Source: a virus. Taken from it: a DNA stretch of 21,374 nt. Positions 1 through 19,434 of the stretch are shown here, piece after piece; the stretch's first letter is position 1, and every line of letters starts with the position of its first letter. The position numbers were made by a program, and so were the translations under genes. The stretch spans positions 1-21,374 of IMG/VR virus record IMGVR_UViG_3300018875_000063. One strand, 5' to 3'. Below the pieces are notes generated by a model that had not been told where the DNA came from, did no database searches, and was given only the letters and a program-made list of their open reading frames with translations.

Positions 1-798
1 ATGATATCGGCCATTGATGCAGGCAATTACATGACCAAGTTTTTTGACGGTCGGCAGCTGAGGGCGTTCCCCTCCCTGATCGGGGAGTACCGGGAACGCA
101 ACCTCCGGCAGCAGCACGGGGATTATGATTTCGAGTTTGAATACGAAGGCCAGCGGGGATTCGCCGGCACGCTTGCTCTACATGAGAGTGAATGCGCGGA
201 AAGCCGGAAAGGCGAGAGCAAAGCGCATCCGGATGCCCGCCTGCGAATCCTGCTTGCGCTGCACCAGTTTGGCGAGGGAATAGAGCATCAGATCATTGTC
301 GGCCAGCCGATCAGCACGCATCAGGAGGCAGAGAAGGCAGCCATCAAGGAGATGCTTTGCGGTCGGCATGAGCTAATCGTGAACGGACAGCGGAAGATCA
401 TCGTCATCCGGCGCTGCGAGGTGGCGGCGGAGGGGGTGACGGCGGGCCTCCTGGTTCCCGGCGGCGGAGTGATCAGGGTAATCGATGTCGGCAGCGGTAC
501 GGTCAATTTCGGCACGCTGATCGATCGCCGGTTTAACGACCGCGGGAGCTTTACGCTGGGGACCGGGATGGAGACGCTTCGATCCGTTAAACCTGCAGAT
601 TTCGCCCGCCAGATCGCTCTCAGGGCGCTTGCCGGGGGCTGGAAGGCTAATGATAGGGTTTACCTATGCGGGGGCGGAGCTGGGGCCGTCTTGGAGGCCC
701 TGCGGGCGTACTTCCCTGGTATCCAGTTGATCGAGGGCGATCCGCAGTATGCCAACGTAAAAGCGTTCTTCTTGATCGCGAGGAGGGTCTATGGCTAA
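1..798 (+). CDS. parM: ParM-like actin-family ATPase (plasmid/prophage segregation)
   Basis: This 265-residue protein is predicted to polymerise with ATP and push DNA copies apart, as ParM and Alp proteins do on plasmids. The actin-fold signatures are visible in order: phosphate-1 loop DAGNYMTK at residues 6-13, a central FPSLIGEYRERN stretch typical of Alp proteins, phosphate-2 loop VIDVGSGTVNFGTL near 162-175, and an adenosine-motif glycine run CGGGAGAV near 224-231. It is shorter than ParM of R1 (about 320 residues), yet the N-terminus begins exactly at the phosphate-1 strand, so it is probably complete. The start sits at base 1, so its ribosome binding site and any upstream centromere cannot be seen. 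It overlaps the next gene by 8 bp, as parM-parR pairs often do. The family assignment is firm; the role in segregation is inferred. Confidence 0.85.
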   Translation: MISAIDAGNYMTKFFDGRQLRAFPSLIGEYRERNLRQQHGDYDFEFEYEGQRGFAGTLALHESECAESRKGESKAHPDARLRILLALHQFGEGIEHQIIVGQPISTHQEAEKAAIKEMLCGRHELIVNGQRKIIVIRRCEVAAEGVTAGLLVPGGGVIRVIDVGSGTVNFGTLIDRRFNDRGSFTLGTGMETLRSVKPADFARQIALRALAGGWKANDRVYLCGGGAGAVLEALRAYFPGIQLIEGDPQYANVKAFFLIARRVYG

Positions 799-1003
799 GG
801 AGATCCGGATTATTCAGGTGGCATTTAATGTGCTCGACCCTGACCAGCTGCAGCTCTACAATCACGTCCAGGAGCGGCCGAATAAGTCCGGTTATCTCAA
901 ACGGCTGATTCAGCGGGATGTCGACGGCGGGCACGGCGGCGGCCGACTGGCTGCGCCGGCTCCGGAGCTGGGGAATGATTTTGTCGTTGAAGGTTTTATC
1001 TAA
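791..1003 (+). CDS. ParR-like small DNA-binding adaptor
   Basis: A 70-residue protein whose ATG lies within the end of parM, preceded by AGGAGG at 780-785. The first half reads as a ribbon-helix-helix-like unit: strand IRIIQVAFNV, then DPDQLQLYNHVQERPNKSGYLKRLIQRDV, where the helix ending in YLKRLIQ resembles ParR and Alp-adaptor proteins. The C-terminal third is Gly/Ala-rich and probably flexible, ending in acidic and hydrophobic residues that could contact the filament. The function would be to bind a centromere-like repeat and couple it to ParM filaments. The assignment rests on gene order plus the pattern of the first 45 residues; no alignment was run. It could instead be a small autorepressor of the operon, which ParR proteins usually also are. 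Confidence 0.6.
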   Translation: MAKEIRIIQVAFNVLDPDQLQLYNHVQERPNKSGYLKRLIQRDVDGGHGGGRLAAPAPELGNDFVVEGFI

Positions 1004-1014
1004 GGAGGGAAAAC

Positions 1015-1218
1015 ATGCTTGAGCTGACCGCAATATTTAAAATCCTGGGGATCGGTGTCGTCTCACATTTCTCCAGCACAGTCCTCGAAAATATGGGGCA
1101 TGGTGGCAAGGTGATGTTCGTCAAGATTGCCGGTTACGTTGCTTGTGCCTATGTATCATTTGAGGTCTGGTGGGAGTGCCTGCGGCAGGTTGCCCACACC
1201 TTCGGCGTGCATGTTTGA
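1015..1218 (+). CDS. SpoIIIAC-like small membrane protein
   Basis: A 67-residue protein with two hydrophobic segments, roughly residues 6-24 (IFKILGIGVVSHFSST) and 37-55 (KIAGYVACAYVSFEVWW). The order IFKILGIGVV, TVLENMG, VKIAGY resembles SpoIIIAC, the small integral membrane protein of the SpoIIIA-SpoIIQ channel of endospore formers, in both length and placement of the two segments. This comparison is from memory, not from a search. The start is preceded by AAGGAGGG, 5 bp before ATG. It sits between the ParM/ParR pair and an FtsK/SpoIIIE-type translocase, so a membrane complex with that translocase is possible. A generic holin-like or phage membrane peptide is the alternative. Confidence 0.55.
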   Translation: MLELTAIFKILGIGVVSHFSSTVLENMGHGGKVMFVKIAGYVACAYVSFEVWWECLRQVAHTFGVHV

Positions 1219-1351
1219 TGCTTTGGTAGCTACATTTGCAGATACGTTAGTAAATACAGCAGTAGTATTGCATTAGTAGTACGAGCAAAAACGTTGATTT
1301 ATCGGGAAAAATCGAATTTGTTTTGAGCGGGAGCGAAAAGGGGCGAAGCGA
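1219..1351 (+). repeat. Noncoding gap with TTAGTA/GTAGTA cluster upstream of the translocase gene
   Basis: No gene is visible in these 133 bases. TTAGTA occurs at 1247-1252 and 1273-1278, GTAGTA at 1262-1267, and a further TAGTA at 1277-1281, giving a short cluster of related hexamers. GTAGCTAC at 1227-1234 is a perfect 8-bp palindrome. This could be a promoter/operator for the translocase gene or a secondary ParR site. I see no convincing -35/-10 pair. Confidence 0.3.
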
Positions 1352-2566
1352 ATGATAATGAGCGGAGTGGGTGGGATAGCAATTATTAAGTTAGCGGCAG
1401 CCTGCGGCTGTCTGGGCGGCGCGTGGACGGTCTACAGGACGACGGCAGACTCAATGTATCGGACCAAGATGCGGAAGCTGTTCATTGCCGGAGAAATCTG
1501 CCTAAAGCGCAGGGGGCGGCAGGGGAAGGAGCTCCGTGTGTATCCCCAGGTGAGCCGGGTCACGGTTTATCATGATTGCGTGCAGGTGGTCTTTGTCCTG
1601 CCGAACGGTCTGGATCCAAAGGAGGTCCGTAAACGGGATTGGCTATTCGAGCAAACCTTTGGCGATAACATCGAGCTATCCGGCTCCTCCAAGACGTTCA
1701 CCTTGAACATTTACGGCCAGGAGGTGCGGCGGTTCGATTATGAGCCGGCGGCCGTAGAGAGGGCCGTAGAAGGACTCAAACTGCCTATCTATGTCGGACG
1801 GAGCCGGACAGGGGATGTAGTGTATGACATGACGGAGCACCCGCATTTACTTGTGGCCGGGGAAACCGGCAGCGGGAAGTCCGTCGCTCTGCGGTCCATC
1901 CTTACGACTCTAATCCGGACAGCGGCGGACAAATTGGAATTGTATTGTGCGGACCTGAAGCGGTCGGAGTTCCATTTATTCAAGGGGGTTGCCCGGCAGG
2001 TGGTGGTCGAAGTTCCTCAGCTGCACCAGATCGTCCTCAAGATCCGGAAGGAGATGCGGCGCCGGGGGGATCTGTTGGACCGGGCGGGCCTGGCGAATAT
2101 AGATGATCTGCCGGCGGGGGAACGGCCCCCGTACATCGTGCTGGCGATCGATGAGGTGGCGTTGCTCAAAAAAGAGAGGGAGATGATGGACGGCATCGAG
2201 GAGATCAGCGCGATCGGGCGTGCCCTGGGGGTGTTCTTGATCCTCAGCATGCAGCGGCCGGATGCGGACGTCCTGGACGGTAAATTAAAGAATAACCTGA
2301 CGGTCCGGATGGCATTTCGCCATAGCGATGAGATCAATAGCCGGATCACCATCGGCAGCGGGGAGGCCGCGGACATCCAGCAGAGCCAAAAGGGGCGAAT
2401 GGTGCTCAAGTTAGACGGCCTGACGAACGTCCAGGGGCCGTATCTCGATCTTCCAAAGGCAAAGACACTCCTGGAGCTCTACAAGCGCACAGAGGAGCCT
2501 ACAGCGGCCCAGAAAGAACCGGAATGGCCGAAGGATGATGAAACAATAGAGATAGGGGTGTTGTGA
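1352..2566 (+). CDS. FtsK/SpoIIIE-family DNA translocase
   Basis: A 404-residue ATPase of the FtsK/HerA class. Residues 5-28 form one hydrophobic segment that probably anchors it in the membrane. The ATPase core follows with TEHPHLLVAGETGSGKS (Walker A 170-177), YCADLKRSEF (strand 2, 198-207) and YIVLAIDEVALL (Walker B 261-268). A later LILSMQRPDADVLDGKLKNN stretch is the usual FtsK sensor region, where Q and R coordinate nucleotide. It lacks the long linker and the gamma DNA-recognition domain of chromosomal FtsK, so it resembles the short translocases of plasmids, ICEs and phages such as the anthrax gamma/W-beta group. The ATG has only a weak AAGGGG site upstream. The next gene starts on its stop codon (GTGA), so the two are translationally coupled. 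It probably moves or positions the element's DNA. Confidence 0.85.
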   Translation: MIMSGVGGIAIIKLAAACGCLGGAWTVYRTTADSMYRTKMRKLFIAGEICLKRRGRQGKELRVYPQVSRVTVYHDCVQVVFVLPNGLDPKEVRKRDWLFEQTFGDNIELSGSSKTFTLNIYGQEVRRFDYEPAAVERAVEGLKLPIYVGRSRTGDVVYDMTEHPHLLVAGETGSGKSVALRSILTTLIRTAADKLELYCADLKRSEFHLFKGVARQVVVEVPQLHQIVLKIRKEMRRRGDLLDRAGLANIDDLPAGERPPYIVLAIDEVALLKKEREMMDGIEEISAIGRALGVFLILSMQRPDADVLDGKLKNNLTVRMAFRHSDEINSRITIGSGEAADIQQSQKGRMVLKLDGLTNVQGPYLDLPKAKTLLELYKRTEEPTAAQKEPEWPKDDETIEIGVL

Positions 2567-3180
2567 AGGTGAACGCGCGCGACAGAGCGATCGTGGCTGA
2601 TCTGGTACGATTCCGCTGCCTGACCCGGGATGATGTGGCGGAGCTTCACTTTTACAACGTCAAGAACCCGGTCACTCAGGCGAACATGGTCCTTAAGCGG
2701 CTGCGGCGGGATGACCTCATTACCTGCGCCACGGATCGGCGAAAGTACATCTATTTCCCGGTGCCGGGCATCAAAAAGGACAGCGCAAAGATAGGGCACT
2801 TCCTGGCTATCGTGGACTTTTACAAGCAGATCCGGAAGGTGGAGGCGCCACGGGTATTCGATGTGGAGCCTAAGCTCGGCGGAAAGGGGCGGCCGGAGCC
2901 GGATGTGTTTTGCATCTGGAAGGGAGCACCGTGGTTTGTGGAGATCCAGCGCTCAACATTTACTGATAAGGTCATGCAGGAGAAGCTGAACCGATATGAG
3001 CAGTATTATCTTAGCGGGGAATGGGAACGGGAGGCGTGGCAGCCGGCGGCCAAAAAGGTATTCCCGTATGTGTGGATCGTCGGGGCTGGCGCCGGCAGTT
3101 ACCGTACCGCAGGAAGGTCATTCAGAGTGTTCCAGGACAGTGTTGATGGGATGAAAAAGAGATTGGGGATTGATTCCTGA
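2563..3180 (+). CDS. Replication-relaxation family protein
   Basis: A 205-residue protein starting with GTG that overlaps the preceding TGA. The N-terminal 75 residues form a winged helix: RDRAIVADLVRFRCLTRDDV is followed by VLKRLRRDDLI and a basic wing with aromatic YIYFPV. The C-terminal part carries PEPDVFCIW and FVEIQRSTFTDK, a D...ExQ arrangement like the core of PD-(D/E)xK nucleases that is common in the replication-relaxation family. Such proteins are regularly found beside FtsK-type translocases in Firmicutes plasmids and prophages, as here. Whether it cuts DNA is unknown. A second in-frame GTG at 2569 is an alternative start. The family call is fairly secure; the role in replication is by family name only. 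Confidence 0.75.
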   Translation: MKVNARDRAIVADLVRFRCLTRDDVAELHFYNVKNPVTQANMVLKRLRRDDLITCATDRRKYIYFPVPGIKKDSAKIGHFLAIVDFYKQIRKVEAPRVFDVEPKLGGKGRPEPDVFCIWKGAPWFVEIQRSTFTDKVMQEKLNRYEQYYLSGEWEREAWQPAAKKVFPYVWIVGAGAGSYRTAGRSFRVFQDSVDGMKKRLGIDS

Positions 3181-7997: not shown

Positions 7998-9504
7998 AGC
8001 CCACCGTGATCTATGCGTTAAGTTTGGCGACCTGACCAAGATCACGGGGGATAACGAAGTGGGTAAATCCAGTATTTTGGAGATCCCTACATGGACATTG
8101 TACGGCACGGACACCTTCGGCGGCAAGATGGACCCGACTCCTACGAATTACAAATACGACCATGTCATGGCCGAAACGCTGCTGGAGGTTGACGGCAAGC
8201 TGCTCAAATTCGGTCGCGGGATTGAGAAGGGGAAGGCGACCTATTACATCAATGACGTGCCAAGCAAGGCGAGCGATTTCGAGGAAATCGTCAAATCGCT
8301 GATTGATAAGGATCTGTTCCTGGCCTTGTTCAATCCCCTGTACTTCTTTTCGCTTCATTGGGAAAGGCAGCGTGAATTAATGCTCCGATATTCGACGCCG
8401 CCCACTCAAAAAGAAGTGTTTGCGGAGATGAGCCGGACGAGCCCGGACCAAAAACTAAAGGACATAAAATTGAACCCTCAAGCCGAGAAGCTGGCCGAGC
8501 TGGTAAAAAAGCACACGCTGCCACAGCTTGAGGAGATCCATAAGAAGAATAAGAACGACAAAGACACAGCACATAAGAAGGCCCAAGGCCGCACGGAGAC
8601 ACTTGAGGAACAGCTCCGTCAACTCCCAGAAGTACCGGACGATATCGAGGCGATCAAGGCGGAAGACGCTGAACTGGTCAAACAGGTCAAAGCTATCCAT
8701 GCCAAAATCGAGCTGGCTGACGAGCCTAAACGGAAGCAGGCGGTGCTTGAGGGGACGCTCGAAAATGTCCGGCAACAGATTGCAGCTGCCAAGGCCCGAT
8801 ACATGAAGGTCCACGGCGAAGAGATCGCAGAGGAATGCTCCACCTGTAAGCGGCCGTTTGACGAGGCGGCGAAGGCGGCGGCCGAAGCGAGCAAGGAAGA
8901 GCGGAAGATGCCGCTGCGGGAAGAGCACGACAAGCTGGTCGCTCGCCGTAAGGAACTCGAGGCGGAGCTGGCCGCGGTGGAACTGGTTGACGTGTCCGAG
9001 CTCTGGGAACAGATGCGTGCCTTGGAGCAACGTAGAGACGCGACAGCAGACACGATTGGCTGGTACAACCGGCGCCAAAGCCTGCAAGCCGATCTCGAAA
9101 AGGCACGAGCTCACGAAGCCGCGACGCTGGAGAGCCGCAACGAATCCATCTTTATCCTTGATGCCATCAAAGCATATGAGGCAAAGGCTGCAGAGCTGCA
9201 GGCGGCCAAGGTACAGGGCCTTTTCAAGACGCTCACGATCCGGCTCTTCAAAGAGCAAAAGAACGGTGATATTAGACCGGATTTTGTAATCGATCGGGAC
9301 GGCAAGACGCCGACACAATTCTCACTGTCGGAAAGCATCCGGGCAGGGCTGGAAGTCCGGGACGTTATCAGTCAGCAAAGCGACTGGATCGCCCCTTGTT
9401 TTATCGACAACAAGGAGAGCGTGACTCGCTACAAGGCCCCGCGCGGCCAGCTGATCACTTGCCAAGTCGTTGAAGACCAACCATTAAAAATCATTAACGC
9501 TTAG
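7954..9504 (+). CDS. Rad50/SbcC-like phage recombination ATPase
   Basis: A 516-residue SMC-class ATPase. The Walker A is ITGDNEVGKSSI (loop 32-39), followed by an N-terminal ATPase lobe. Residues about 180-395 are a coiled-coil-rich arm with a CSTC pair at 295-298, reminiscent of the Rad50 zinc hook. The C-terminal lobe has FSLSESIRAGLEVRD (an ABC-signature-like element near 456-470) and CFIDNKES near 482-489, occupying the Walker B position with D and E. It is about half the length of bacterial SbcC, the typical size of phage versions beside RecT. It would be expected to dimerise and gate or stimulate DNA end processing. The ATG has GGAGG with good spacing. The next gene follows after 14 bp. 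Confidence 0.8.
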   Translation: MSQFKLIEGKAHNFKAHRDLCVKFGDLTKITGDNEVGKSSILEIPTWTLYGTDTFGGKMDPTPTNYKYDHVMAETLLEVDGKLLKFGRGIEKGKATYYINDVPSKASDFEEIVKSLIDKDLFLALFNPLYFFSLHWERQRELMLRYSTPPTQKEVFAEMSRTSPDQKLKDIKLNPQAEKLAELVKKHTLPQLEEIHKKNKNDKDTAHKKAQGRTETLEEQLRQLPEVPDDIEAIKAEDAELVKQVKAIHAKIELADEPKRKQAVLEGTLENVRQQIAAAKARYMKVHGEEIAEECSTCKRPFDEAAKAAAEASKEERKMPLREEHDKLVARRKELEAELAAVELVDVSELWEQMRALEQRRDATADTIGWYNRRQSLQADLEKARAHEAATLESRNESIFILDAIKAYEAKAAELQAAKVQGLFKTLTIRLFKEQKNGDIRPDFVIDRDGKTPTQFSLSESIRAGLEVRDVISQQSDWIAPCFIDNKESVTRYKAPRGQLITCQVVEDQPLKIINA

Positions 9505-9518
9505 GAGGCACTTATCAT

Positions 9519-10451
9519 ATGGCAAAAGAAACTCAGATTCAGGAAGTACCTGATGTAAACATTAATCAGCTTCAAGCGATTGGGGAGTTTGGCCTCCCAG
9601 AGATTATGACTATGAAAGAAACACTCGGCAAGAAACTGACCATCCCGCAGTTCAACCTCTTTATGTACCAGATGAAGCGGATGGGGCTGGATCCTTCGTT
9701 AAAACATGCTTTCCCTATCCCGTACGGTGACACGATTGATATCAGAATCGCATATGAGGGTTACCACGCGAAAGCACAGGAATCGGAGGGTTACCAAGGG
9801 GTATACAATCAAGTCATTTGCGAAAACGAGGTCGATGATTTCGAGGCGGAAACGGACGAGGAGGGCATCATTGTCAGCGTAAAGCACAAGATTAAATTCC
9901 CGCGAGGCAAGGCAGTCGGAGCTTATTCCATTGCTAAGCGAGAAGGGAAAAAGAACGTAATTGTGCTTATGGATGCCAGCGAGGTTCAGAAATGGGTCAA
10001 GAAAAATCCGAGTTTCTGGAAGCTTGATGACGGATCGATCGACCCTGATATGTTCAAGAAGCATGTGGGAATCCGAGCTATCAAAGCTCAATACGACATA
10101 GCTGCTGTGGTCGAGGAGAGCATGGAGTCAATGAACGCAGCATCCGCTGCCCCGACGTATGATCCGCCAACGCGGAAAGACGTTACCCCGCCAGTCGAGA
10201 AGATAGAAACAACAGAAAGCGTGAATCAGGATGACGAGGCTGCTGCGCGTATGAAAGCACTCAAAGCTCAGGTCAAGGCTAACTACAAGAAACTGGGGCT
10301 TACGGACAAGGAAGCTATGGGCGCGCACATGCAGCAATACTGCAAGGTTAAGGGTGACGAGCCTACGGAGGCAGAACTGAAGGCATACCTCAAGATAATG
10401 GACATGCAGATTCAAGCAGCAGAGCAGGCAGAAGACACACTCCCGGAATAA
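9519..10451 (+). CDS. recT: RecT-family single-strand annealing protein
   Basis: A 310-residue annealing protein of the RecT/Bet class. The core region reads FNLFMYQMKRMGLDPSLKHA, then GDTIDIRIAYEGYHAKAQES, with the GLDP and R..YEGY features typical of the family (about 47-90). Strand-rich segments follow to about residue 200, then a charged linker (residues about 205-245), and a helical tail rich in Lys and Glu with QQYCKVKGDEPTEAELKAYL. The ATG is preceded by AGGAGG. It would coat single-stranded ends and pair them with homologous strands during phage replication and repair. It lies directly after the Rad50-like ATPase. No YqaJ-type exonuclease is seen nearby. Confidence 0.85.
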   Translation: MAKETQIQEVPDVNINQLQAIGEFGLPEIMTMKETLGKKLTIPQFNLFMYQMKRMGLDPSLKHAFPIPYGDTIDIRIAYEGYHAKAQESEGYQGVYNQVICENEVDDFEAETDEEGIIVSVKHKIKFPRGKAVGAYSIAKREGKKNVIVLMDASEVQKWVKKNPSFWKLDDGSIDPDMFKKHVGIRAIKAQYDIAAVVEESMESMNAASAAPTYDPPTRKDVTPPVEKIETTESVNQDDEAAARMKALKAQVKANYKKLGLTDKEAMGAHMQQYCKVKGDEPTEAELKAYLKIMDMQIQAAEQAEDTLPE

Positions 10452-10454
10452 GCC

Positions 10455-10640
10455 ATGGAGCAGGTAATCGTCTATGAGCGGTGCCCGGACTGCCAGGTAT
10501 GCGGTAAGGAAATCAATCTGGGTCATGAGAAGCAATTCCATGACTTGCGAGTATGCAGCACATGCAAAGAAGGACTGGAGGGGAAACGAAATGGCAAGCG
10601 AAAGCAAACCCGTGCAACTCGACCTTTTCGACCATATTGA
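10455..10640 (+). CDS. Small zinc-knuckle protein (61 aa)
   Basis: An ATG at 10455, three bases after recT, but without a clear Shine-Dalgarno. The cysteines are spaced C-x2-C-x2-C (CPDCQVCGKEI) and C-x2-C (CSTCKEGL), with a His pair between, the layout of a small treble-clef or ribbon zinc site. The tail is very basic (KRNGKRKQTRATRPFRPY) and lies in the overlap with the next gene. It could be a nucleic acid-binding accessory factor. The cysteine pattern supports a real gene; the weak start lowers confidence. Confidence 0.5.
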   Translation: MEQVIVYERCPDCQVCGKEINLGHEKQFHDLRVCSTCKEGLEGKRNGKRKQTRATRPFRPY

Positions 10641-10806
10641 CCCTCCGGCTCCGGCCCGGGAAGTCCTGAACGGGATGTATTACGAAAAGACCACGGATAA
10701 ATTCGTCTCGTTCGTTCTCGGGCGCCGGTACTACGAGGAGCCGGCCAAGGGGTGCCCGCACGATCGGGAGTGGCAGGAACGATTAAAGAGGGAGCGTGCG
10801 ATATGA
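10591..10806 (+). CDS. Small protein with N-terminal sliding-clamp motif QLDLF
   Basis: The ATG at 10591 is preceded by GGAGGGG, ten bases before the start. The 71-residue protein opens MASESKPVQLDLFDHIDPP; QLDLF matches the consensus beta-clamp-binding pentapeptide QL(S/D)LF. The remainder has an aromatic and basic segment FVSFVLGRRYYEEPAKGCPH and a charged tail. It overlaps the zinc-knuckle gene and ends in an ATGA with the MBL-fold gene. It may bring a recombination or replication factor to the host clamp; that is inference from the motif alone. Confidence 0.6.
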   Translation: MASESKPVQLDLFDHIDPPAPAREVLNGMYYEKTTDKFVSFVLGRRYYEEPAKGCPHDREWQERLKRERAI

Positions 10807-11558
10807 AAGTGGACATATTAGCTTCCGGCAGTGCTGGGAATTGCGTGGCAGTCACCACCGGCGGCAAGACCATCCTGATTGATGCCGGCGTCGCGAAGAC
10901 CAAGATCGAAAAGCGGCTGCTGGAAGTCGGTATCCGGCCGGATCACATTGCGGCGATCATGATCACCCACGCACACAACGATCACACCAAGGGGCTGACT
11001 CTCGCAAACAAATTCCGGATCCCGGTATGGGCGACGGATGGAGAGTGGAAAGGGATATCCGGCGTAGACGAGGACCTGCGGCGGACGGCGGAAACCCGGT
11101 GGGGAAAATACGAGATGATCGAGTTCGGCGGCCTCCATGTGTATCCTTTTCAAACCTACCACGATGCCTATGAGCCAGTCGGGTACGCGGTAGAGGATGA
11201 TGAGGGGAATCGATGCTGCGTTCTCTTTGACACCGGGAAGTGGACGGAGGAGATGCTAGAAATGATGGAAGGCAGCCACTACGTGCTGATCGAGGCGAAT
11301 CATGATCCCGACCTGGTCGAGATGTGCAACCGACCTGACAGCATCAAAGCCCGCATCCTCTCCGATATCGGGCACCTGAGTAATCAGCAGACGGCGGAGG
11401 TCCTGAAACGGTTGATCCGGGGCCGCGGTGAGCGAATATACTTGACTCATTTATCAGGCGAGAATAACACTCCGCAGCTGGCGGAGATGACCGTAAAGAT
11501 GGCACTCCGGCAGCGCGGATTTGAAGCAGGAACACATTATCACCTGGAGGTGGTTTAG
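10803..11558 (+). CDS. Metallo-beta-lactamase-fold protein, YycJ/WalJ-like (possible nuclease)
   Basis: A 251-residue MBL-fold protein coupled to the previous gene by ATGA. The HxHxDH metal site is HAHNDH at residues 56-61. Other expected elements are LASGSAGNC near the start, TILIDAG, YHDAYEPVGYAV with VLFDTG, and a later SDIGHLSN and THLSGENN. These are hallmarks of the YycJ/WalJ branch, some of which are DNA exonucleases. Its position three genes after RecT, with no YqaJ or lambda-type exonuclease in view, suggests it resects ends for RecT. GAGGGA upstream supports the start. The enzyme class is firm; the substrate is inferred. Confidence 0.85.
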   Translation: MKVDILASGSAGNCVAVTTGGKTILIDAGVAKTKIEKRLLEVGIRPDHIAAIMITHAHNDHTKGLTLANKFRIPVWATDGEWKGISGVDEDLRRTAETRWGKYEMIEFGGLHVYPFQTYHDAYEPVGYAVEDDEGNRCCVLFDTGKWTEEMLEMMEGSHYVLIEANHDPDLVEMCNRPDSIKARILSDIGHLSNQQTAEVLKRLIRGRGERIYLTHLSGENNTPQLAEMTVKMALRQRGFEAGTHYHLEVV

Positions 11559-12089
11559 ATGAAATCTTACAAAAATGTATATACAGCCGAGGAGTATAAA
11601 CAGCTTCAAAAACTGAACGAGGCGGCATTAGAGCAAAACAAACTCCTGAAGAGGCAGATCGTTGAGCTCCAGAACGAAAAGCTTAGGCTACAGCAAGAGG
11701 TCGATGATGCAATGGACGTGCATAAGGTGGAGTTGCCGCGGGAAGTGGCTGAGGCGATTGAAGATTTGAGAAATGCAGACTTGTCTGGATTCGGTATCAT
11801 GCACTTTATTGACCATATTTCAGAAGTGAAAAATCACCGCTGGCATGGTCCGTTGCGGGTCCTTCGGAAATTTACCTTTTTGGATACTAACCAATATACG
11901 GCTGGCTGCGAACTCCTGATGAATGCCCTGGTCAACGGCTATACGATTGAGAAGACACCATCCGAAAAGTTGCACACCAAAGTCGAAGAACTAATCTTTA
12001 ACTGGATCGGCAGCCTGGACGTAGACGAGGAAGAAGTGCACCGACTGGCCGACCGGATCGTGGAGCGTGCAGAAGAAATATTAACCTGA
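11559..12089 (+). CDS. Hypothetical phage protein with coiled coil (176 aa)
   Basis: ATG immediately after the MBL gene, with GGAGGTGG well placed. The N-terminal 50 residues form a coiled coil (LLKRQIVELQNEKLRLQQEV). A middle segment VELPREVAEAIEDLRNADLS begins a globular helical domain with FGIMHFIDHI and FTFLDTNQYTAGCELLM. The PREVAEAIE phrase occurs in several Firmicutes phage proteins with DUF1642-like layouts, but I cannot name the family with certainty. The tail is acidic. The role is unknown. Confidence 0.65.
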   Translation: MKSYKNVYTAEEYKQLQKLNEAALEQNKLLKRQIVELQNEKLRLQQEVDDAMDVHKVELPREVAEAIEDLRNADLSGFGIMHFIDHISEVKNHRWHGPLRVLRKFTFLDTNQYTAGCELLMNALVNGYTIEKTPSEKLHTKVEELIFNWIGSLDVDEEEVHRLADRIVERAEEILT

Positions 12090-12105
12090 ACGTTGGTGAG
12101 GAGGC

Positions 12106-13059
12106 ATGAGCGGGTTTATCCCGATTGGAAGGGAGCTTCAGAATCACTGGCTCAGGCGTGATAAAGATTACTGGATGGTTTTCTGTGAAATGTACTTTCT
12201 GGCCCGTTATTCAGACAAGCCTGAGACGCGCGTGATCGACGGGCTGGAAGTCACGATCCATCAAAAAGAATTCATATTTGGTCGCCCTGGTTGGAGTCGG
12301 AGGCTAGATATATCCGAGCAACGGTTGAAGACCCTGATCAAAAAACTCATTGATGAAGGGTTCATAAAACAGACCCAAAGGCACAGCAAATTCACTGTTT
12401 ATTCCTTCGAATATGAGCCCGAAATCATTCAAATGAGCAACCAGCAGAACAACCAGCACAGCAACCAGCAGAAATTTTCAGAGCAACCAGCAGAAACTCA
12501 GACAGGACAAGGGCTCTCGGGCACAAGCAACCAGCAGGATTTTTCAGAGCAACCAGCACAACAACCAGCAGAGCAACCAATGAAAGAAGAAGGTATTAAA
12601 GAAGAAGGTTACAAAGGAGAAGGTTTTAATAATATGGCGAAAAATCACGAACCCATTGCAAGGGAAGTAATTGCTTACCTAAACGAAAAAATGGGCAAGC
12701 GATACAAAGCTACGCCAGGAACAATGAAGTACATTCTTGGTCGCTTACACGAGGGGTACAGCAAAGAAGACTGCATTCATGTGATAGATGTTAAACATGC
12801 CGAATGGTACGGAACGGATAAAGAGAAATACCTGGACTATGAGACCCTCTTTAGACCGAGCAAGTTTCCTAAATATCTGAACCAGCGGCTGGATGTTGTG
12901 ACTCGGAAGGCGAGCAATGGATCTTACCCTACAAAGTCACAAAGAGCGAACTCTATTTTAGACCAAGAACTACGAAAGGAAGGTGGACGGGATGGAACGC
13001 AGCGACGTGATATTACTCATGAAGTTGATCACCAACGTTTACCAGAATTTCGAGGTTGA
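12106..13059 (+). CDS. Phage replisome organizer (winged helix + Phg_2220-type C-terminal domain)
   Basis: A 317-residue initiator-type protein. Residues 1-105 are a winged-helix domain (FGRPGWSRRLDISEQRLKTL, LIKKLIDEGFI), as in DnaD/replisome organizer proteins. Residues 111-174 are a low-complexity linker rich in Gln, Asn and Pro, then Glu/Gly, encoded by tandem repeats. Residues about 183-265 match the phage conserved C-terminal domain: VIAYLNEKMGKRY, GRLHEGYSKEDCIHVIDVKH, YLDYETLFRPSKFPKYLNQ. It would bind the origin and recruit the helicase loader and DnaB, both encoded just downstream. GAGGAGG is very close to the ATG, so spacing is short. The last 68 bases overlap the next gene. The DNA repeats inside the linker probably form the origin itself. 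Confidence 0.85.
   Translation: MSGFIPIGRELQNHWLRRDKDYWMVFCEMYFLARYSDKPETRVIDGLEVTIHQKEFIFGRPGWSRRLDISEQRLKTLIKKLIDEGFIKQTQRHSKFTVYSFEYEPEIIQMSNQQNNQHSNQQKFSEQPAETQTGQGLSGTSNQQDFSEQPAQQPAEQPMKEEGIKEEGYKGEGFNNMAKNHEPIAREVIAYLNEKMGKRYKATPGTMKYILGRLHEGYSKEDCIHVIDVKHAEWYGTDKEKYLDYETLFRPSKFPKYLNQRLDVVTRKASNGSYPTKSQRANSILDQELRKEGGRDGTQRRDITHEVDHQRLPEFRG
12438..12582. repeat. CAACCAGCA iteron array in the replisome organizer gene (candidate origin)
   Basis: CAACCAGCA occurs seven times, starting at 12438, 12450, 12462, 12484, 12528, 12550 and 12562, with a partial eighth (CAACCA) at 12574. The intervals are 12, 12, 22, 44, 22, 12 and 12 bp, so the two halves are mirror images in spacing. AT-rich ATTTTCAG blocks separate copies 3-4 and 5-6. 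Iterons inside the initiator gene are the arrangement of the lambda O origin and several Firmicutes phage origins. Binding has not been shown; the protein linker reads as Gln/Pro-rich filler. Confidence 0.6.
12583..12636. repeat. Three 15-bp purine-rich repeats followed by an AT-rich stretch
   Basis: AAAGAAGAAGGTATT, AAAGAAGAAGGTTAC and AAAGGAGAAGGTTTT lie in tandem at 12583, 12598 and 12613 and are followed by AATAATATGG. One strand is almost pure purine. Placed right after the iterons, this strand-biased, easily melted segment fits a DNA unwinding element. In protein it encodes KEEGI/KEEGY/KGEGF. Confidence 0.55.
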
Positions 13060-13351
13060 GGACCCGGCGAAGATTGATGTCTGGTATATGGTGCTTCAGG
13101 ATACGCCGATCGAGGATGCGAAGCGAAATCTGATGACTCATTTCCGGACAAATAGCTTCCCGCCTACTCCAGCGGATTTAATTCGTGAAAATAAGCAACG
13201 GCAACCTTCGTTTTACGAACTTCAACGAGCTGAAGAAGAAGCTGATCGCTTGGCCCTAGCCGAATACAACGAGAAGGCCGTCCCGATGCCGGAGCATATA
13301 CGCCTAAAGCTTGAACAGACGCTTGCAAGGAAGAAGGTGAGCCGGAAATGA
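12992..13351 (+). CDS. Helicase loader, G39P-like
   Basis: A 119-residue protein starting at ATG 12992; AAAGGA lies eleven bases upstream, whereas the GTG at 12983 is too close to it. The first 65 residues (MERSDVILLMKLITNVYQNF, IDVWYMVLQDTPIEDAKRNL, NSFPPTPADLI) have the layout of the SPP1 G39P helicase loader/inhibitor family, including the conserved FPPT turn. The tail is charged and helical. In SPP1 the protein holds and delivers the DnaB-type helicase G40P to the initiator. Its position exactly between initiator and helicase, with ATGA coupling to the helicase, supports that job. Confidence 0.75.
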   Translation: MERSDVILLMKLITNVYQNFEVEDPAKIDVWYMVLQDTPIEDAKRNLMTHFRTNSFPPTPADLIRENKQRQPSFYELQRAEEEADRLALAEYNEKAVPMPEHIRLKLEQTLARKKVSRK

Positions 13352-14697
13352 GTTTTGAGGCAGAACAGGCCGTACTCGGCTCCATCCTGAAGAATCCAGA
13401 CCTGCTTGATGACTGCTATCTGCGGCCGGATGACTTCGACCCAGAAGGCAATAACGGGTTGGTATTTGAAGCCTTGAGCTGGGCGCATGAACATCTATCA
13501 AATAGACCGGGGGTAAAGGACCCGTTTGACCCTGTATTGCTTGCAGAGCAGTGGGGGGCACAACTTTCCAATATTGGCGGACTGACCTATCTAATGCAGC
13601 TTAGGGGTTCAGTCCCATCGACTTCAAACTTTGATCACTATCAAAAGATCGTCCGAGAAACGAGCATTGAGAATCGAGCAGCCCGTGTAATGCGCGAAGT
13701 TTTAAACGGAGGCAAGCTGAATCTCAGCGCTGTCCGTGAAAGCCTTGAGCGGCTGGAAGAATTGCAAGGGCAAACAATCACTGATGGAATGAAAAAAATG
13801 TCCGACGTTCTGGACGGACATCACAAGGAGATTATGGCACGCGGCAGCCGGGCCGGACTGACCGGGGCCAAATCAGTCAGCGATGATTTCAACGAGTTGT
13901 CAGGCGGCCACCAAAAAAATGATTTGATGATCGTCGCCGCGAGGCCGAGTATCGGCAAGACGGCTTATATTGTAAACGACGCCAGGTCGTCGGCGGAAAA
14001 TGGTTATACCGTGGTACTGTTCTCAGCAGAGATGTCGGGCTTGGACGTGGCAGAGCGTTTTGTCTGCACCATTGGCGGGATCGACAGCAAGAAAATCCGT
14101 GCCGGACGCCTGACGGAAAATGATTGGCATAGCTACAGCAAGGCGCTTGAGATTCTCGACAACCTGCCTCTTTACATCGATGATACTCCCGGGATGACCG
14201 TAGAGTATATCCGTCGGCAGGTTAAGGCTATGAAAAAGAAGCACAAGAACTTGATCGTTTACATCGACTACCTGCAGCTGATCGAGACTGAGAAGAAATT
14301 CAGCCAGAACGCAGATCGGGTGAATTACGTATCCAAACAGCTCAAGCAGATCGCCCGCACCTTTGATGTGCCGGTCATCGCCATCAGCTCCGTGGGCCGG
14401 AAGTGCGAGGAGCGCCAAGACAAACGGCCGATGATGAGCGACCTTCGGGAATCTGGAAATATCGAGTTTGACGCAGATATCATCATGTTCCTGTATCGGG
14501 ACGACTATTACTACCCGGACACAGTTCGGAAAGGAATCATCGAATTGATTATAGCTAAGGGACGTAAGATCGGGACGGCAACGGTGGAGATGGTCTTCGA
14601 TCGAAAAACCGGGCGTTTTATCAACCTGAGCAAGGAAGATAAGGAAAAGCTGGCGGAGAAGGTGAGGCAGCATGAGCAAACTCATTCAAAACGATGA
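13348..14697 (+). CDS. DnaB-like replicative DNA helicase
   Basis: A 449-residue hexameric helicase. The N-terminal DnaB domain (FEAEQAVLGSILKNPDLLDD, about 3-105) is followed by a linker and the RecA-like motor: VAARPSIGKTAY (Walker A 198-205), VLFSAEMSG (223-231), LIVYIDYLQLI (Walker B about 302-312), VIAISSVGRKCEERQDKRP and DLRESGNIEFDADIIMFLYR. These are the standard DnaB motifs; Ile replaces the more usual Met in ARPSMGKT. The start overlaps the loader gene by ATGA. It would unwind the phage fork. Nearly full length compared with bacterial DnaB (about 450-470), so it is probably functional. Confidence 0.93.
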   Translation: MSFEAEQAVLGSILKNPDLLDDCYLRPDDFDPEGNNGLVFEALSWAHEHLSNRPGVKDPFDPVLLAEQWGAQLSNIGGLTYLMQLRGSVPSTSNFDHYQKIVRETSIENRAARVMREVLNGGKLNLSAVRESLERLEELQGQTITDGMKKMSDVLDGHHKEIMARGSRAGLTGAKSVSDDFNELSGGHQKNDLMIVAARPSIGKTAYIVNDARSSAENGYTVVLFSAEMSGLDVAERFVCTIGGIDSKKIRAGRLTENDWHSYSKALEILDNLPLYIDDTPGMTVEYIRRQVKAMKKKHKNLIVYIDYLQLIETEKKFSQNADRVNYVSKQLKQIARTFDVPVIAISSVGRKCEERQDKRPMMSDLRESGNIEFDADIIMFLYRDDYYYPDTVRKGIIELIIAKGRKIGTATVEMVFDRKTGRFINLSKEDKEKLAEKVRQHEQTHSKR

Positions 14698-15067
14698 GCA
14701 ATATAACAAGGCTCTCAGCGGGCTTGTCACTATGGCCGCGCAGCTGGATGACCCACTAAGCCCGATGAGTCCTGAAGAGAAGTCTCGGGTACAGGCGATC
14801 TATGACCGGACTGCAGACCTTGTGCAGTATTACCGGCGGGGGCAGATGGTGAGGAAGTTCCCTGGCCTACGTGAGCAATACGAGAGCCTCGGCTGGACGT
14901 GGCAGGAACTCGGTGACCCCGAACAGTCTGAGTCGGAGCAGCCGGAGGAATCAGTTCTGGAGCAGACTGCGAGCCCGCCAGCAGTAGAAGAACGGTCGGA
15001 GCCGGAAACAGCACCGCCAGAAAAGCCGGCACCAAACAAGAGCCTGATGGATTGGCTCGATGATTAA
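14672..15067 (+). CDS. Hypothetical phage protein with helical head and acidic tail (131 aa)
   Basis: Overlaps the helicase gene by 26 bp; AAGGTGAGG precedes the ATG. The N-terminal 85 residues (YNKALSGLVTMAAQLDDPLS, AIYDRTADLVQYYRRGQMV, FPGLREQYESLGWTWQELG) are a recognisable, recurring Firmicutes phage type without known function. Residues about 90-131 are rich in Glu, Pro and Ser and end NKSLMDWLDD, a short hydrophobic-acidic peptide at the C-terminus that could be a docking motif. The coupling to DnaB suggests a replication accessory, which is inference. Confidence 0.6.
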   Translation: MSKLIQNDEQYNKALSGLVTMAAQLDDPLSPMSPEEKSRVQAIYDRTADLVQYYRRGQMVRKFPGLREQYESLGWTWQELGDPEQSESEQPEESVLEQTASPPAVEERSEPETAPPEKPAPNKSLMDWLDD

Positions 15068-15084
15068 AAAGTGAGGGGAAACGA

Positions 15085-15411
15085 ATGAAATATATAACCA
15101 TTGCAATACCGGTGCTGGATTACCCGATCCGAGGATACCAGCCTGGGGACATGCGGGTGAAGCTTCAGGAGGAAGCGAACGAGCTAATTGACGAAATCGA
15201 GTCTGCGGACTTTGATCAGCGCCGAATGCTCAGCGAGCTGCTGGATGTACTGCAGGTAACGGTCGGGATGATTCGGCAACAGGCGCGGGAGGTATTGCCA
15301 CCCGGGGAGGCTACAAAAACACTCGCCGATGTGATTGCGCGTGCCAATTATGATCATCTCTTGAAAATCAATGAGTATGCCCGGCAGCGTTCCTGGGAGG
15401 TGGCGAGATAG
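15085..15411 (+). CDS. MazG-like nucleotide pyrophosphohydrolase
   Basis: A 108-residue, all-helical protein. The metal-binding pattern of the all-alpha NTP pyrophosphatases is visible as EEANELIDEIE (about residues 31-41) and SELLDVLQVTVGM (about 51-63), that is ExxE...ExxD. Enzymes of this group hydrolyse NTPs or dNTPs to monophosphates, and phage copies are common near replication genes. GAGGGGAAACG lies upstream of the ATG. The match is by pattern and length; the substrate is unknown. The next gene begins immediately after the stop. Confidence 0.6.
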   Translation: MKYITIAIPVLDYPIRGYQPGDMRVKLQEEANELIDEIESADFDQRRMLSELLDVLQVTVGMIRQQAREVLPPGEATKTLADVIARANYDHLLKINEYARQRSWEVAR

Positions 15412-17733: not shown

Positions 17734-19434
17734 ATGATACCGCCACAAGAACTCATTATAGACAATTTCGCCGGCGGCGGGGGAGCTTCTACAGGGATCG
17801 AGCTGGCAACCGGGCGCAGCGTAGACATTGCCATTAACCACGATCCCGCAGCGATCGCCATGCACCGAGCTAACCATCCTGAGACGGAGCACTACTGCGA
17901 AAGTGTCTGGGATGTTGATCCCCGGGAGGTCACCGGCGGGCGTCCAGTGGGACTGGTCTGGCTCTCACCTGATTGCAAACATTTCAGCAAAGCCAAAGGA
18001 GGAAAGCCGGTAGAGAAAGGCATCCGCGGGCTCGCTTGGGTAGCTGTCCGGTGGGCGGCGACAGTCCGGCCGCGGGTCATCATGCTGGAGAATGTTGAGG
18101 AGTTTAAAACCTGGGGGCCGCTGATGAAAGACGGGTATCCGGATCCTGATCAGAAGGGTAGGACGTTTAACTGCTTCGTCAATGCCTTGCGGCGGCAGGG
18201 CTACCGAGTTGAATGGAAAGAGCTGAGAGCCTGTGACTATGGTGCGCCGACGATCCGCAAGCGCCTGTTCCTTGTAGCTCGGCGGGATGGCCGAACGATT
18301 GTCTGGCCGGAACCGACGCATGGCGACCCAGAGAGCGAGGAGGTTAAATCCGGTAAGTTGGAGCCGTGGAGGACGGCAGCGGAAATCATCGACTGGTCGC
18401 TTCCATGCCCAAGCATATTTGAACGCAAGAAACCGCTGGCCGAGAACACTATGCGACGAATCGCCCGAGGACTGCAAAAGTTCGTCTTTGATAATCCGCG
18501 GCCATTCGTGATCAAGGTCAACCATAGTAAAGACGATGCCTTCAGAGGCCAAGAGATAGATCAGCCACTCCAAACGGTCACAGCGAAGAACGGATGGGGA
18601 ATTGTCATTCCGCATATTACCAAGTTCCGCGGGGGTGCCACGGGACACCCAATGACTGACCCACTCCATACAATCACATCCGGCGCGGGAGCTGAACGTC
18701 CGGCAGGCGCCGCCCATGCAATGGGCTTAGTAGCCGCTTTCCTGACTCAGTACCACTCTTACGACGACAGCGCCCGTGGGCAAACGCTCGACCGACCGCT
18801 CCTGACACAAGACACTTCAAACCGTTACGGTCTTGTCACCGCCCATATTGCTCGGCATTTCGGAGAGTCGGTGGGAAGCGAACTCGACAAACCGATCGGC
18901 ACGGTTACGGCTGGAGGCGGTGGAAAGAGCGCCGTTGTAACGAGCCATCTTGTCAAAATGCGTGGTACCAACATTGGGCAGCCAGTTACTGGTCCGCTAC
19001 AAACAATAACCGCAGGCGGCCTTCACTTCGGCGAGGTTCGAGCCTTCCTACTCAAATATTACGGCAGTGCTGATAACGGCCAGAACCTGGGCGAGCCGCT
19101 CCATACTATCACAACAAAGGATCGCTTCGGCTTGGTTACGATACACGGCGTAGATTACCAAATTGTTGACATCGGCATGCGGATGCTAGAGCCACACGAG
19201 TTATTTGCGGCACAGGGATTCCCGCCGAATTACATCATCGATGTGGACGCTGATGGGGTTCGTTATCCAAAGAGCGCGCAGGTTGCACGCTGCGGAAACG
19301 CCGTACCGCCGCCGTTCGCAGAGGCACTGGTTCGGGCGAACCTGCCGGAGCTATGCACGGGTTCCGGAAATTCTTTGACAATTGAACGGTACAAAGAGGC
19401 GGTCGGCGCCGGGCAGATGGAGTTTTCGCTATAA
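17734..19434 (+). CDS. C5 cytosine DNA methyltransferase with large repeat-containing target domain
   Basis: A 566-residue enzyme transferring methyl groups from AdoMet to cytosine. Motif I is IIDNFAGGGGASTG (8-21). The catalytic Cys81 lies in LSPDCKHFS, a variant of the usual PPCQ-FS loop. Motif VI is LENVEEF (118-124), motif VIII RKRLFLVARR (175-184), and motifs IX and X are MRMLEPHELFAAQGFP and ARCGNAVPPPFAEALV. Between VIII and IX lies a 285-residue target recognition region holding six repeats (259-469). Multi-specific phage MTases of SPbeta type also have large target regions. No restriction partner is visible, so protection of phage DNA is the likely purpose. AAGGAGGG precedes the start. 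Confidence 0.9.
   Translation: MIPPQELIIDNFAGGGGASTGIELATGRSVDIAINHDPAAIAMHRANHPETEHYCESVWDVDPREVTGGRPVGLVWLSPDCKHFSKAKGGKPVEKGIRGLAWVAVRWAATVRPRVIMLENVEEFKTWGPLMKDGYPDPDQKGRTFNCFVNALRRQGYRVEWKELRACDYGAPTIRKRLFLVARRDGRTIVWPEPTHGDPESEEVKSGKLEPWRTAAEIIDWSLPCPSIFERKKPLAENTMRRIARGLQKFVFDNPRPFVIKVNHSKDDAFRGQEIDQPLQTVTAKNGWGIVIPHITKFRGGATGHPMTDPLHTITSGAGAERPAGAAHAMGLVAAFLTQYHSYDDSARGQTLDRPLLTQDTSNRYGLVTAHIARHFGESVGSELDKPIGTVTAGGGGKSAVVTSHLVKMRGTNIGQPVTGPLQTITAGGLHFGEVRAFLLKYYGSADNGQNLGEPLHTITTKDRFGLVTIHGVDYQIVDIGMRMLEPHELFAAQGFPPNYIIDVDADGVRYPKSAQVARCGNAVPPPFAEALVRANLPELCTGSGNSLTIERYKEAVGAGQMEFSL
18508..19140 (+). repeat. Six internal repeats in the methyltransferase target domain
   Basis: Residues 259-469 hold about six units of 32-43 residues, each ending in a (D/E/G)(Q/P/K)P-L-TIT/TVT phrase followed by Gly and a V strand. 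Examples are DQPLQTVTAKNGWGIV, DPLHTITSG, DRPLLTQDTSNRYGLV, DKPIGTVTAGGGG, GPLQTITAGG and EPLHTITTKDRFGLV. The DNA copies have diverged, so this is an old duplication. Confidence 0.7.

Follow-up and report, generated by a model that had tools for sequence, protein, structure and literature searches.

The window analysed here, the whole 21,374 nucleotides of the IMG/VR virus record IMGVR_UViG_3300018875_000063, belongs to a virus of Paenibacillus-like bacteria, and its relatives include Paenibacillus campinasensis and P. terrae. On the plus strand, at 12106-13059, lies a gene for an initiator, or replisome organizer, of 317 residues (phrog_428 replication initiation protein, E 8e-36; PF09524 Phg_2220_C, E 9e-23). 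Directly downstream on the same strand are the genes for a helicase loader (12983-13351; phrog_2289, E 1e-18) and a DnaB-like replicative helicase (13348-14697; PF03796, E 3e-78; phrog_19). The N-terminal part of the initiator (12106-12426) is predicted to be a winged-helix DNA-binding domain; the AlphaFold2 model of residues 1-111 (pLDDT 90.8, pTM 0.82) places a recognition helix at residues 71-83 and a wing at 87-101. Gln72, encoded by the CAA codon at 12319-12321, lies in this predicted recognition helix and is the residue that predicts base 2 of the repeats described below. The C-terminal Phg_2220_C domain (12667-12882; PF09524) is presumed to recruit the replisome, and unrelated domains take its place in relatives. 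Homology of the N-terminal domain was traced through the relative L047, whose own domain is homologous to the gene O protein of coliphage HK022 and to other phage initiators. In addition, the initiator of the window matches the O-like PHROGs 345 and 391, and its domain model has structural matches to viral replisome organizers in BFVD (best E 3e-8). In the PDB, sequence and fold searches matched nothing more specific than generic winged helices, for the most part ribosomal eS25, and the Pfam search of the window gave no match to the winged-helix domains of plasmid iteron Rep proteins. Elsewhere in the window, a RecT gene lies upstream of the initiator gene and a C-5 cytosine DNA methyltransferase gene (PF00145) lies in the early region at 17734-19434. 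At the left end (1-3180; GC 0.54-0.59) there are genes for an actin-like protein (ALP_N), an FtsK/SpoIIIE ATPase and a replication-relaxation protein; these resemble genes of plasmids or ICEs and stand next to a phage early region, so that the element is possibly a phage-plasmid or a composite.

The linker between the two domains of the initiator carries seven exact copies of CAACCAGCA on the plus strand, at 12438-12446, 12450-12458, 12462-12470, 12484-12492, 12528-12536, 12550-12558 and 12562-12570, followed by a truncated eighth copy, CAACCAatg, at 12574-12582; close relatives have a truncated CRACCA copy in the same place. Dinucleotide shuffling of the window gives an expectation of 0.17 copies and a maximum of 2. 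With the truncated copy included, the starts are 12, 12, 22, 44, 22, 12 and 12 bases apart, and these copies and intervals exactly reproduce those given in a preliminary description of this DNA, which had read the locus as a likely replication origin. All copies have the same orientation and a search of the array for inverted repeats found none; the mirror arrangement emphasised in that description is therefore a symmetry of spacing and not a dyad. The symmetry holds in the window and its closest relatives, but it is not general, and we rejected it as a functional rule because distant relatives show series such as 12, 45 or 57, 12, 23, 11, 11. The conserved unit is instead a 9-bp site on an 11-12-bp step. 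Across the family, gaps longer than 13 bases follow a period of 11.15 bp (resultant 0.83, n = 128; random sets, 0/2000), and the loci obtained by pattern fishing alone give a resultant of 0.76 at 10.95 bp. A lattice of about 11.15 bp accounts for the intervals of the window better than mirror symmetry does, and a step of about 11 bp suits initiators aligned along the helix, about one per turn. Copies and spacing are kept in close relatives, where the preliminary description had asked for them to be sought. The five related records searched for a second array, which are possibly fragments, contained none, with one array per record.

The array is written into coding sequence, and the manner in which it is written indicates that the DNA itself is under selection. 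Translation of the 9-mer gives NQQ (copies 1, 3 and 5) or NQH (copy 2) in one frame and QPA (copies 4, 6 and 7) in another; two frames are used in the window because steps of 22 and 44 bases are not multiples of three, and 100 of 102 arrays spread their copies over two or three frames. When the linker was recoded synonymously, 0.93 copies remained on average and none of 20,000 trials reached seven or more; the protein sequence alone therefore does not account for the array. Among 14 close relatives, codon identity at shared amino acids is 96% at iteron wobble bases and 99% in the purine-rich repeats that follow the array, compared with 57% in the DNA-binding domain and 87% in the rest of the linker (Mann-Whitney against the DNA-binding domain, 4e-10 for the iterons and 3e-9 for the purine repeats). 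The comparison of synonymous conservation that the preliminary description had proposed thus set both repeat classes far above the DNA-binding domain, and its suggestion that the DNA rather than the protein may be selected was borne out by this and by the recoding trials. That the repeats are a feature of the protein, a flexible Asn/Gln-rich linker grown by slippage with the likeness of the DNA as a by-product, is scarcely credible. The linker is indeed of low complexity and steps of 12 bp keep the frame, but slippage leaves the double reading as NQQ and QPA and the recoding result unaccounted for, the 11-bp steps of distant relatives cycle through all three frames, and one base of the repeat covaries with a residue that lies outside the linker, in the DNA-binding domain. 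Recoding, frames and this covariation refute a protein-only origin as a full explanation.

Directly after the array, at 12580-12637, lies a candidate DNA unwinding element, assigned from computed stability and its synonymous identity. It consists of three purine-rich repeats of about 15 bp, starting at 12583, 12598 and 12613 and 82-88% identical, followed at once by AATAATATGG at 12628-12637; the tandem purine repeats and AT-rich segment noticed earlier are thus present. By computed stability, no 50-mer of the replication region, taken as 9500-15150, is less stable than the one that starts at 12585, within the block. The regularity of the purine repeats taken by itself is only marginally above what the protein requires, as 423 of 20,000 recodings reach it. 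Taken together, however, recoding, synonymous conservation and the low-stability block indicate that iterons and purine repeats are constrained as DNA. We also observed that the last purine repeat (12613-12636) contains AAAGGAGAAGG, which is followed by an in-frame ATG at 12634, in the same place in 13 relatives, and that the unrelated C-terminal domains of relatives mostly begin with Met soon after the purine repeats. It is possible that this ATG is an internal start giving the C-terminal part alone, or a remnant of domains that were taken up together with their start codons.

The identity of one amino acid in the predicted recognition helix is closely tied to one base of the repeat. Four relatives (L007, L015, L043 and L044) keep the spacing of the array with CGACCAGCA, TGACCAGCA or, in L007, some TGTCCAGCA in place of CAACCAGCA, and in all four Gln72 is replaced by Arg. 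We therefore compared residue 72 with iteron base 2 across a wider set of loci. A first fishing pattern, CNACCAGCANNNCNACCAGCA, was abandoned, most of its matches being in-frame coding repeats; the scan of viral contigs that was used fixed three CCAGCA motifs at 11-bp steps and left the first three iteron bases free, and most of the matches listed were arrays inside open reading frames of about 230-340 residues. Pooling all collected loci, these matches included, gave 102 distinct domains. Among these, Gln72 goes with A at base 2 in 47 of 48 domains and with G in one, Arg72 with G in 24/24 and A in none, Asn72 with C in 10 of 12 and A in two, and Lys72 with G in all four; His, Ser, Thr, Ala, Gly and Met occur at this position in few domains and follow no single rule. 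The exception, L310, combines Gln72 with AGG and perhaps results from a partial alignment. Counted by copy, the agreement is 242/251 for Gln with A, 127/131 for Arg with G, 42/57 for Asn with C and 20/20 for Lys with G. When all domain columns were scanned by mutual information against eight iteron positions, residue 72 with base 2 came first (1.02 bits corrected; 0.49 for the next pair).

Shared descent and base composition were both considered. A tree built without residue 72 needs 14 changes between Gln and Arg, and the best tree yields 14 independent Gln/Arg pairs, every one of them concordant, although only 2-3 of them lie on well-supported branches, since the branches that separate Gln and Arg lineages are mostly poorly supported. 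Clustering at 60% identity leaves 21 Gln-A, 12 Arg-G, one Gln-G and no Arg-A clusters. A new scan with a different spacing provided a held-out set of 14 domains less than 90% identical to those used, and for these the prediction, fixed beforehand, was concordant in 14/14. Genome GC bias was rejected as the source of the link, with median GC of 0.44 and 0.45 for the two groups and 68% predicted from GC compared with 99% from the residue. The side chains of Gln and Arg are classic partners of the bases A and G, respectively, and we infer a direct contact of residue 72 with base 2. The covariation, a sequence comparison, is strong indirect evidence that the initiator reads the iterons; it speaks to the reading of the sites and not to the start of replication there. 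Our search of the open-licence literature found no paper describing a residue-base code for such initiators, and the code appears to be new, whereas iterons inside an initiator gene are of an already known kind.

The code applies to one subclass of initiators, since CCAGCA arrays are absent in phages A118, A403, Mammaliicoccus phi31, Shewanella 3/49, Cellulophaga phi18:3 and Vibrio 1.135.O, and the other O-like and DnaD-like initiators examined have other repeats, or none of the CCAGCA kind. Three loci (L225, L236 and L240) carry CCAGCA arrays, mostly at 11-bp steps, in open frames that do not match the winged-helix profile, and are perhaps other initiator classes sharing the core of the site. 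Pseudoalteromonas phage HS2 (L376) has Gln at position 72 and repeats around AACCAACA, in which the AACC part is kept and the rest of the core differs; this suggests that other iteron positions are read by other residues.

Comparison of relatives also shows how this part of the genome is exchanged. L010, L011, L012 and L013 match the window along 90-100% of the length of the DNA-binding domain, the iterons and the purine repeats, whereas their C-terminal domain and loader gene cannot be aligned and DnaB aligns in L011 only; across relatives, several unrelated C-terminal domains start right after the purine repeats. The alignment of the N-terminal block where its flanks do not align indicates that the reader, its sites and the melting block travel together. 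This position of the breakpoints, with a RecT gene upstream, could also be taken to mean that the array is chiefly a recombination joint for swapping initiator halves, kept by exchange through short homologous repeats. We consider this very unlikely, as it leaves the covariation with residue 72 and the lattice unexplained and conservation persists where the C-terminal domain has not been exchanged; a role as a joint may itself be a consequence of the array being an origin.

Other phages also have an origin inside the initiator gene. The origin of phage lambda inside gene O is a proven precedent, with four 18-bp iterons (PMC3349717), and in an Stx phage iteron changes that are silent for the O protein served to show that the iterons matter for replication (PMC7466680). 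As in the window, the iterons of these origins lie inside the initiator gene and are followed by an AT-rich stretch (PMC3349717, PMC7466680). The comparison with lambda oriO made in the preliminary description therefore stands for iterons and a melting segment inside the initiator gene, but the layout of the window, with seven or eight non-palindromic direct repeats of about 9-11 bp in place of four 18-bp iterons and its own loader and DnaB-like helicase where the lambda P protein loads host DnaB, is closer to oriL of the Bacillus subtilis phage SPP1, a likeness drawn from the description of SPP1. In this proven precedent, with genes 38-39-40, it is established that gp38 binds direct repeats within gene 38, its own, which are accompanied by an AT-rich unwinding element, and the phage supplies a helicase loader and a DnaB-type helicase (PMC6316719). 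SPP1 also has oriR about 13 kb away; a second array was not found in the five relatives of the window, whose records may be fragments. A further comparison is with gene O of HK022 (L379:1126-2025), whose N-terminal domain is homologous to that of L047 (tblastn E 3e-8) and whose linker holds five CCAGCA copies spaced 11, 22, 33 and 11. Unlike the window, HK022 has Asp at position 72, T at base 2 in several copies and a different C-terminal domain; its Asp72 is possibly a further letter of the code. Salmonella phage P22 likewise has an annotated rep_origin inside its initiator gene 18, as in the candidate origin of the window, with a different repeat, TCGGTAAAA, and no CCAGCA array. The distinction between rep-lambda and rep-P22 is one of initiator-origin type (PMC3349717).

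We propose that the array is the phage replication origin, located inside the gene of its own initiator and working in the manner of SPP1 oriL and the lambda origin, and give this reading, with its whole mechanism, a probability of roughly 0.9. The CAACCAGCA direct repeats would be the binding sites of the winged-helix N-terminal domain, and Gln72, at the start of its recognition helix, would recognise the A at iteron position 2 or the base pair that this A forms. Several initiators would line up along the lattice of about 11 bp and melt the purine-rich block of low stability next to it (12580-12637), whereupon the C-terminal domain and the downstream loader would deliver the phage DnaB helicase. 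Sequence analysis shows the array, the selection on the DNA, the covariation of residue and base, the block of low stability, the order of the genes and the exchange of the cassette; from these we infer that the initiator binds the array, that the purine block opens, that the helicase is loaded and that replication starts at this place. The origin placed here by the preliminary description is well supported, by the conserved copies and spacing, the synonymous conservation and the uniqueness of the array; the GC-skew analysis it suggested was uninformative, the skew staying positive through the region with no switch near the array. Since the covariation speaks for recognition only, an array that is bound by the initiator but is mainly regulatory (autorepression, copy control or handcuffing), with replication starting elsewhere, would also fit it, and plasmids with oop and ori-lambda iterons do inhibit rep-lambda phages, so that iterons can act negatively (PMC3349717). 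This is nevertheless improbable, because a low-stability block with near-perfect synonymous conservation abuts the array, the loader and helicase genes lie downstream and a second array was not found in the five relatives; regulatory and origin functions could also coexist.

Reader, sites and melting block are contiguous and would therefore be inherited as one cassette, and would still fit one another after other parts of the replication module have been swapped. Specificity of initiator for origin type is known among lambdoid phages. In the present family we consider it probable that a one-residue, one-base code, in which iteron base 2 is A for Gln at position 72, G for Arg or Lys and C for Asn, together with a lattice of about 11 bp inside the initiator's own gene, forms a self-contained, transferable cassette, from which origins and their specificities would be predictable across many uncultivated phages. 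The residue-base rule, drawn from a sequence comparison of more than 100 relatives, is unusually testable, and HK022, a laboratory coliphage, is a convenient model. The family would also be a clean natural system for the joint change of a protein and its set of sites, as at least seven sites must follow one amino-acid change. The Asn/Gln-rich linkers of these initiators would owe their appearance to being origins, spelled out across two or three reading frames. Most phage replication origins are unknown, and a protein-blind pattern of three CCAGCA motifs at 11-bp steps yields mostly initiator genes among the matches listed; a helix residue that predicts the variable base would therefore offer a way to locate origins and to predict specificity groups from sequence.
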